Assembly (NCBI GenBank): GCA_937142855.1
Contig: CAKZQZ010000046.1
Coordinates: forward strand, 1-64,000
Source of the DNA: an uncultured Alphaproteobacteria bacterium
GTDB taxonomy: Bacteria > Pseudomonadota > Alphaproteobacteria > Puniceispirillales > Marisalimonadaceae
Direction of reading: 5' to 3'
DNA length: 64,000 bases
Shown: one piece after another, positions 49,319-51,685 of the stretch
Position numbering within the stretch: position 1 is the first letter of the stretch
How the letters are laid out: each line of letters begins with the position of its first letter
Translations under genes and position numbers: made by a program
Notes under the pieces: generated by a model
Seen by the model: the letters and a program-made list of their open reading frames with translations, nothing else
Databases searched by the model: none
Told to the model about the DNA's origin: nothing

Positions 49319-49606
49319 CTAATTAAGTTTTGATTTAAGAATATTAGAAGGATTAAAAGTAACAACATTTCTAGCACTTATAGGTGCTTCAATACCTGTT
49401 TTTGGATTTCTGCCTAATCGTGATTTTTTATTTCTTATAATAAACGAACCAAATGATGATATTTTTACGTCCTGTTTATTTTCAAGTTCTGATAAAATAA
49501 AATCAAAAATATTCTCAATTATCAGTGATGAAGTAGAATTTGGCAAACCTACGTTTGAAGATATTTTCTCAACCAAATCATTTCTTGTCCAAGTTCTAGA
49601 TTTCAT
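49319..49606 (-). CDS. ihfA: Integration host factor alpha subunit
   Basis: A 95-aa DNA-bending protein of the HU/IHF family. T-W-T-R-N-D-L-V-E at the start, the F-G-S-F-I-I-R core and R-N-P-K-T-G with the DNA-intercalating proline place it with IHF. The alpha assignment follows from its position between fabH and the merR gene, the usual alphaproteobacterial ihfA location. The ATG at 49606 is the natural start. No ihfB is in the window. Confidence 0.92.
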   Translation of the reverse strand: MKSRTWTRNDLVEKISSNVGLPNSTSSLIIENIFDFILSELENKQDVKISSFGSFIIRNKKSRLGRNPKTGIEAPISARNVVTFNPSNILKSKLN

Positions 49607-49648: not shown

Positions 49649-50641
49649 TTAAATATTTTTGGGTTGCCCAATTCTAACTAAAGAAGCACCCCAACTCAAA
49701 CCTCCCCCGATAGCCTGAAATGCTATTAAATTACCATCAACAATCCTACCAGATAAAACTGCATTATCTAAGGCAAGAGGGATTGATGCTGCTGAAGTGT
49801 TGCCATGCTCTGAAACTGTAGAAATTATTTTATTATGATTTATTTTTAATTTATCAGCCACTGCAGTGATTATTCTTTGGTTCGCCTGATGAGGAACAAC
49901 CCAGTCAATTTGATCTATTTTTTTGTTTGATATTTTTAGCGCATTTAGGAGTGAAGAAGAAAGTTTTTCCACAGCGTGTTTAAAAACTTCTTTTCCTAAC
50001 ATTTCTATAGAACCAACAGTTTTATTTGTTGAAACACCCCCATTTGTTTTCAATATGTCATAATACTTTCCGTCGGTAAATAAAGCAGTGGATAAAACTC
50101 CCCAATCATCTAAGTTGAATTCTTTAGTATTAAATTTTTGTAAAACAACTGCTCCAGCACCATCACCAAATAAAACTGAGGTTGATCTGTCTGTCCAATC
50201 TAAAAGTTTAGACATAGAATCAGCTCCAATTACTAAGCAATTTTTATAAAAAGAATCTAACATCATTGATTTAGCAACAGATAATGCAAACACAAAACCT
50301 GCACAAACAGCTTGAACATCAAATGATACTGCGTTTATGTTTAGTTTTTTTTGAACAAGAGCTGCAGTTGCTGGAAAAGTATTATCAGGAGTAGTTGTAG
50401 CAACAATTATTAAATCAACATCATTTTTGTCTAATTTAGCTGATTTAATTGCTTTTAGAGCTGCAAAATAAGCTAAGTCAGAAGTTGTTTCATTAGCTGA
50501 AACAAAATGTCTTTTTTTTATACCAGATCTTTTAGAAATCCATTCATCTGATGTTTCTATTTTCTTAGATAAATCATGATTGGTTAAATAATCATTGGGT
50601 AAATAAGACCCAACACCTGTTAATAAAATCGAATTAGTAAT
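49649..50641 (-). CDS. fabH: 3-oxoacyl-ACP synthase III (FabH) with apparent ATT start codon
   Basis: FabH condenses acetyl-CoA with malonyl-ACP to start fatty acid synthesis. The triad is intact: Cys113 (A-V-C-A-G-F), His251 (V-P-H-Q-A-N) and Asn281 (H-G-N-T-S). The frame is continuously open from the plsX stop at 50660 to 49649. It has no ATG, GTG or TTG before codon 117 (GTG at 50293), which would remove the catalytic Cys. The N-terminal homology (L-L-T-G-V-G-S-Y-L-P, T-S-D-E-W-I) requires a start close to 50641. There an ATT lies 7 nt after GGAG. From it the protein is 330 aa, normal for FabH. An out-of-frame ATG at 50655 is closed after six codons. A 1-nt sequencing or assembly indel is the main alternative. 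Confidence 0.88.
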   Translation of the reverse strand: MTNSILLTGVGSYLPNDYLTNHDLSKKIETSDEWISKRSGIKKRHFVSANETTSDLAYFAALKAIKSAKLDKNDVDLIIVATTTPDNTFPATAALVQKKLNINAVSFDVQAVCAGFVFALSVAKSMMLDSFYKNCLVIGADSMSKLLDWTDRSTSVLFGDGAGAVVLQKFNTKEFNLDDWGVLSTALFTDGKYYDILKTNGGVSTNKTVGSIEMLGKEVFKHAVEKLSSSLLNALKISNKKIDQIDWVVPHQANQRIITAVADKLKINHNKIISTVSEHGNTSAASIPLALDNAVLSGRIVDGNLIAFQAIGGGLSWGASLVRIGQPKNI

Positions 50642-50652
50642 GAATATTCTCC
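50639..50652 (-). promoter_or_regulatory. Ribosome binding site and ATT initiation codon of fabH
   Basis: On the minus strand GGAG (50652-50649) is followed by 7 nt and then ATT (50641-50639). The spacing is ideal for initiation and there is no canonical start codon in frame nearby. The competing ATG at 50655-50653 overlaps this Shine-Dalgarno and opens only a six-codon frame. ATT starts are known for infC and pcnB in E. coli. Confidence 0.6.
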
Positions 50653-50659
50653 ATGAAGC

Positions 50660-51685
50660 TTATTTTAAGGAATCCATATCTACTTTACTCATTTTCTTTT
50701 TAAGATTAGATACAAATTCATACTCAACCATATCTGCTGCTACGCTTATTGCATTAGCAAAACCAAAAGCATCTGTTCCACCGTGACTTTTTACTGCAAT
50801 AGCATTTAACCCAAGAAAAACAGCACCATTGTACTTTCTAGGATCCATTTGCAGACGGAAATTTTTTAATGATTTTTTTGAAAACAAATAACCAATTTTA
50901 GAGCTAAATGAACTTGACAATGCCTTTTTAAGATAAGTAGTAACTAACAATGCAGTACCTTCAGCTGTTTTTAAAGCTACGTTTCCAGTAAATCCGTCAG
51001 CAACAATCACATCCGTTTCACCTTGAGCAATTTTATCACCCTCTATGAAACCTTTATAATTAATTTTATCTTTCATAGTAGATAAAATCAGTGATGCTTC
51101 CTTAATATAATCCAAACCTTTTTGTTCTTCTTCACCAATGTTTAGCAGTGAAACAGTAGGGTTTTTTATGCCCATAATAATACTAGCAAAAGCTTGACCC
51201 ATAAAAGAAAATTGAACAAGGTTCTTTGCATCACAATCAATGTTGGCTCCTAGGTCGAGCATACAACTTTCACCTATAATTGTAGGAAAATATGCGGCTA
51301 TAGCAGGTCTTGAAATGCCTTCAATAGGTCTAAGATATAACTTTGACATTGCCATTAATGCACCAGTATTCCCAGCAGATACCACAGCATCACAGAACCC
51401 AGACTTAACTTGATTTATAGCATGTGCCATTGACGAGTTTTTACCTGTTCTAAGAGCAACACTGGGCTTTTCATTTGCAGAAATAAATTCTTCAGTATGA
51501 ACGATGTTTGAATCTTGAAGATTAGAAAATGAATTAATCAAAGAGGAAATAATATTTTCATCACCTGAGAAAGTAAATTTCAAATTTGGATGTCTTACTT
51601 TTGCTTGAGCAGCTCCATCGATTACAATCTCTGGAGCAGAGTCACCGCCCATAGCGTCCAATGAAATATTTATTAATTTTTTCAA
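50660..51685 (-). CDS. plsX: Phosphate acyltransferase PlsX
   Basis: A 341-aa enzyme that makes acyl phosphate from acyl-ACP for glycerolipid synthesis. Landmarks are S-L-D-A-M-G-G-D near the start, G-K-N-S-S-M-A near residue 80, V-S-A-G-N-T-G-A-L-M-A, G-A-N-I-D-C, and A-D-G-F-T-G-N-V-A-L-K. It precedes fabH with 18 bp between its stop and the proposed fabH ATT, and both genes are in the same reading frame. The DUF177 and rpmF genes that usually lie upstream are not here. Confidence 0.96.
   Translation of the reverse strand: MKKLINISLDAMGGDSAPEIVIDGAAQAKVRHPNLKFTFSGDENIISSLINSFSNLQDSNIVHTEEFISANEKPSVALRTGKNSSMAHAINQVKSGFCDAVVSAGNTGALMAMSKLYLRPIEGISRPAIAAYFPTIIGESCMLDLGANIDCDAKNLVQFSFMGQAFASIIMGIKNPTVSLLNIGEEEQKGLDYIKEASLILSTMKDKINYKGFIEGDKIAQGETDVIVADGFTGNVALKTAEGTALLVTTYLKKALSSSFSSKIGYLFSKKSLKNFRLQMDPRKYNGAVFLGLNAIAVKSHGGTDAFGFANAISVAADMVEYEFVSNLKKKMSKVDMDSLK

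Follow-up and report, generated by a model that had tools for sequence, protein, structure and literature searches.

An ATT initiation codon predicted for fabH and conserved throughout a genus of Puniceispirillales

The stretch of DNA analyzed here (the window) comprises 64,000 nucleotides of contig CAKZQZ010000046.1, from the assembly of an uncultured alphaproteobacterium of the family Marisalimonadaceae (GCA_937142855.1). On its minus strand, a gene for beta-ketoacyl-ACP synthase III (fabH; positions 49649 to 50641, 330 amino acids when read from the proposed ATT start) lies between plsX upstream, in the same orientation (50660 to 51685), and a gene resembling that for integration host factor alpha downstream (49319 to 49606). 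The predicted FabH protein scored well above the cut-off of TIGR00747 (381.6 bits; cut-off, 292.1) and matched NF006829 with 403.9 bits. Searches against solved FabH structures returned relatives with E values down to 9e-91, with the cysteine of the VCAGF motif aligned. PlsX likewise scored above the cut-off of its family (TIGR00182, 332 bits; cut-off, 243.4), and the score of the downstream gene fell just below the threshold of its family (NF001401, 109 bits; cut-off, 111). The plsX gene of the window itself appears to start with TTG (51685).

The fabH reading frame extends without interruption from the stop codon of plsX (TAA, 50662 to 50660) down to 49649. The first ATG, GTG, or TTG within it is a GTG at 50293, which is codon 117 counted from the ATT and lies past the catalytic Cys113. 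The ATT proposed as the initiation codon (50639 to 50641) stands 18 nt after the plsX stop and 7 nt after a Shine-Dalgarno sequence, GGAG (50649 to 50652). A preliminary description of this DNA had reported this arrangement and suggested initiation at the ATT; the sequence and the extent of the frame were as it had stated. Initiation there would extend the N terminus of FabH by about two residues relative to the Escherichia coli enzyme, as judged from the alignment offset against 1hn9.

The junction was compared across the genus, whose members are nearly all represented by draft assemblies. Of 40 genus genomes searched, fabH was found in 26, and these carry the compared junction. In 13 of the other 14, plsX was likewise unmatched, so that gaps in the drafts explain the missing fabH more simply than a genuine loss of the gene from some members, a possibility that was considered and set aside. 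In all 26 genomes, the codon homologous to the ATT of the window is ATT, at FabH identities of 69 to 95%. Each of the six other invariant isoleucine columns of fabH contains a mixture of codons in the same genomes, and overall isoleucine codon usage in these genes is 438 ATT, 294 ATA, and 39 ATC. The uniformity of the putative start codon therefore exceeds what chance or codon usage would produce. The distance from the plsX stop to the ATT is 18 to 28 nt in every genome, and GGAG precedes the ATT by 7 to 8 nt in 25 of 26, the exception (L022) retaining only GGA. Thus, alignment with close relatives, which the preliminary description had proposed as a check, found both elements kept and neither ATG nor GTG at the ATT position in any genus genome.

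The same comparison bears on whether the ATT might be an artefact or a relic, with a sequencing error, a 1-nt indel, or decay of the gene having displaced an original ATG at 50654. An ATG does lie out of frame there and overlaps the ribosome site of the window. The same in-frame ATT occurs in 25 other species assemblies, no relative shows an indel, and the remainder of FabH is intact and conserved, so that the probability of such an origin is negligible. The short frame opened by this ATG (MENIHY, 50634 to 50654) does exist, as had been noted earlier, with positions that need correcting by one: the ATG occupies 50654 to 50652 rather than beginning at 50655, and the stop occupies 50636 to 50634 rather than 50637 to 50635. 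Its suggested role as a leader peptide is not supported by the relatives, most of which lack the ATG; where ATGGAG recurs (L014, L015, L018 to L020, and L025), the frame differs in both length and sequence. It was judged to be a nonfunctional chance frame.

A second alternative is that translation of fabH begins at a usual codon elsewhere, such as a TTG at codon 6 or 7, a TTG farther upstream, or the ATG seen in L022. Some usual codon (ATG, GTG, or TTG) is indeed present near the fabH start in 19 of the 26 genomes, and many relatives have a TTG at codon 6 or 7. These codons vary in position by subclade, however, with TTG at codon 6 in one and at codon 7 in another, and five or seven codons upstream in three genomes. 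In seven genomes, that of the window included, no ATG, GTG, or TTG occurs from the in-frame stop upstream of the ATT as far as codon 10. Since the positions differ and seven genomes have none, the genomes cannot all start fabH at one and the same usual codon. In one genome (L013), an in-frame TAA two codons before the ATT leaves almost no space for an upstream start. Moreover, TTG at codons 6 and 7 alternates with the synonymous TTA and CTA, a start at either would drop the residues that immediately precede the conserved GSYLP strand, and the spacing of the ribosome site suits the ATT. Initiation at a usual codon is accordingly regarded as very unlikely, and the conserved ATT is well supported by these alignments as the genuine start of fabH rather than an error.

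Relatives outside the genus suggest how the codon arose. In the sister genus represented by L048, the homologous codon is ATG within an otherwise matching context (GGAG-N8-ATG-TCT). The L048 sequence reads GGAGTTTAATTA-ATG-TCT, compared with GGAGATNNNAAA-ATT-TCT as the typical form in the genus, and the codon position, the second residue, and the ribosome site correspond. An ATG near the fabH start was also found in another genus of the family and in the three other sampled families of the order; in the drafts of genus g2 of the family, neither fabH nor plsX was matched. In a FabH tree, the ATT genomes formed one clade (support, 98/96) adjoining L048. The simplest history consistent with these sequences is that ATG was ancestral in the family, changed to ATT by a single substitution on the branch leading to the genus, and has been retained as ATT since. 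A switch of this kind is extremely rare: among 61,358 ancestral AUG starts in one survey, 1 had become AUU (PMC5622118). One member of the basal pair, L022 (paired with L023), has an ATG immediately before the conserved ATT, and pairing at its ribosome site is weakened (−4.0 kcal/mol, compared with a mean of −7.2 kcal/mol). This may represent a partial reversal to a usual start, in which case at least one species may have abandoned the arrangement.

The frequency of unusual starts in the genus was surveyed in stretches of 11 contigs from ten genomes, in which 300 conserved gene groups were tested for a shared ATG, GTG, or TTG near the start of homology. Seven groups were flagged as having no shared usual start, and two of these were clear, namely, infC, which served as a positive control, and fabH. 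On inspection, the other five were rejected as displaced or unaligned ATGs and apparent antisense or overlapping frames. Because only infC and fabH stood out clearly among 300 groups, the genus does not appear generally tolerant of odd starts. The usual starts sampled (269 gene groups, about 1,100 starts) consisted of 974 ATG, 109 TTG, and 16 GTG codons; TTG thus outnumbers GTG by about 7 to 1 as an alternative start in this AT-rich genus, the sampled contigs of which have 29 to 32% GC. The genus, whose order Puniceispirillales corresponds to SAR116, probably belongs to the uncultured low-GC SAR116 subclade described previously (PMC8547437). Among the infC loci examined (L053 to L079 and L160 to L179), all 27 matches from the genus start with ATA, preceded by GGAGAT, and ATA was also found in relatives across the order where the start was readable, which indicates that starts discriminated by initiation factor 3 (IF3) are in use in this lineage. 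This uniform infC start follows a strong Shine-Dalgarno site, and gene finders may misplace it.

The components expected to act at the fabH start were examined. The 3′ end of the 16S rRNA was GGCTGGATCACCTCCTT in 14 drafts of the genus, with a canonical anti-Shine-Dalgarno sequence; it was read from these relatives because no 16S gene was found in the assembly of the window. Predicted pairing at the fabH ribosome site was −6.8 kcal/mol, compared with −4.1 kcal/mol for the median gene (rank 43 of 269; infC ranked 9), as would be expected if a good ribosome site must aid a poor codon. RNAalifold found no conserved RNA structure at the fabH start, and its accessibility was ordinary (rank 105 of 269). 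IF3 of the genus aligned with that of E. coli over nearly its full length and has kept R99 and R131, sites of fidelity mutants in E. coli. The initiator tRNA carries the canonical CAU anticodon, so an unusual anticodon was rejected as the cause of the ATT start. Its anticodon stem is AGG/CCU rather than GGG/CCC (L290, L292, L293, L294, and L297, near position 1500), and GGGCTCATAACCC was present in 0 of 40 genus genomes; the AGG/CCU stem is probably common in Alphaproteobacteria. Many genus genomes also contain extra copies that apparently comprise only the 3′ half of tRNA-fMet, with up to five AGGCTCATAACCT matches per genome (L291, L295, and L296, near position 1500 in each; G000:C8:28886 and 34905; G000:C27:294; G000:C48:35506), a pattern like that of attachment sites where elements have integrated at the initiator tRNA.

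The AGG/CCU anticodon stem could be taken to favor relaxed start-codon rules in the genus, with ATT as one of many tolerated starts. Such relaxation is highly improbable, given that infC and fabH alone clearly lacked a usual start in the survey and that IF3 is well conserved.

The reading favored here, to which we assign a probability of about 0.58, is that the ATT is a weak start discriminated against by IF3, which keeps FabH synthesis low and probably makes it sensitive to the balance between IF3 and ribosomes. The codon, its conservation, its ATG ancestor, the ribosome site, and the rarity of such starts within the genus are well supported by comparison of sequences. From the published behavior of non-NTG starts, we infer that translation of fabH would be weak and IF3 sensitive, and that the low initiation rate could serve to match fatty acid initiation to translation capacity. 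IF3 destabilizes initiation at non-NTG codons, an effect through which infC regulates itself; IF3 represses sigR at its GTC start (PMC5472188), and in Staphylococcus aureus, AUU and AUA starts yield about 10% of the output of AUG (PMC13009471). At fabH, the ordinary CAU initiator tRNA would read the ATT, aided by the conserved GGAG, and IF3 discrimination against this codon would hold FabH synthesis low relative to that of the neighboring genes. Synthesis would then be expected to drop whenever IF3 outnumbers the 30S subunits and to rise when IF3 is short. A link to IF3 is plausible in this genus, in which infC itself starts with ATA and IF3 is well conserved; beyond the codon, nothing specific to IF3 was seen at the fabH start, where local RNA structure is ordinary.

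The ATT could instead be real but static, a low-efficiency start that fixes a low dose of FabH and has no natural response to IF3. This possibility deserves serious weight, although we consider it to have less than an even chance of being correct. It draws on the same comparative evidence for the ATT, on the precedent of pcnB (Binns and Masters 2002, as cited in PMC13009471), and on a cvfC1 AUU reporter that showed no medium dependence in S. aureus (PMC13009471). A low dose could, however, have been set by a weak TTG, which is common in the genus (109 of about 1,100 starts), yet ATT, and not TTG, ATA, or ATC, is found in 26 of 26 genomes. The constancy of ATT where TTG was readily available suggests, though only indirectly, that the codon itself matters. 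If the IF3-discriminated start is accepted, a further, tentative step, which we consider rather doubtful, is that FabH synthesis reads the ratio of IF3 to ribosomes. In this streamlined ocean bacterium, discrimination at the start codon would then suffice by itself to let translation capacity set the first step of fatty acid synthesis and hence membrane supply.

Searches of an open-access library of papers yielded no description of a fabH gene that starts with ATT. The kind of system is known from infC, pcnB, sigR, and ccpN; the gene, the genus-wide fixation, and a switch that can be placed on a tree appear to be new. Here, a central metabolic gene has retained a rare ATG-to-ATT switch through a whole genus, and fabH offers a natural case for testing IF3 discrimination as metabolic regulation beyond IF3 itself. 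In practical terms, gene finders that accept only ATG, GTG, and TTG will cut fabH short or put its start in the wrong place in these genomes.

Compared with systems already described, fabH resembles infC (AUU, AUA, or AUC starts with IF3 autoregulation) in having a clade-fixed, AU-type non-NTG start and a good Shine-Dalgarno sequence. It differs in that infC encodes the discriminating factor and thereby closes a feedback loop, whereas fabH would be an open-loop target, and in that the non-NTG start of infC extends across the order, whereas the ATT of fabH is confined to one genus. The pcnB gene of E. coli shares with fabH an AUU start, a chromosomal location outside the translation machinery, and an expected limit on translation, but it is nonessential and belongs to RNA metabolism, whereas fabH belongs to central lipid metabolism. 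Like fabH, sigR of Streptomyces (PMC5472188) is a nontranslation gene in an operon with a conserved noncanonical start, its product being low relative to its partner; its codon is GTC, however, and its IF3 dependence is experimental, whereas that of fabH is predicted. The staphylococcal cvfC1 (AUU) and ccpN (AUA) genes also combine a conserved start of this type with a Shine-Dalgarno sequence, with an output about 10% of that of AUG (PMC13009471), but they encode small or regulatory proteins behind extended Shine-Dalgarno sequences, whereas fabH encodes a biosynthetic enzyme behind a moderately strong site.
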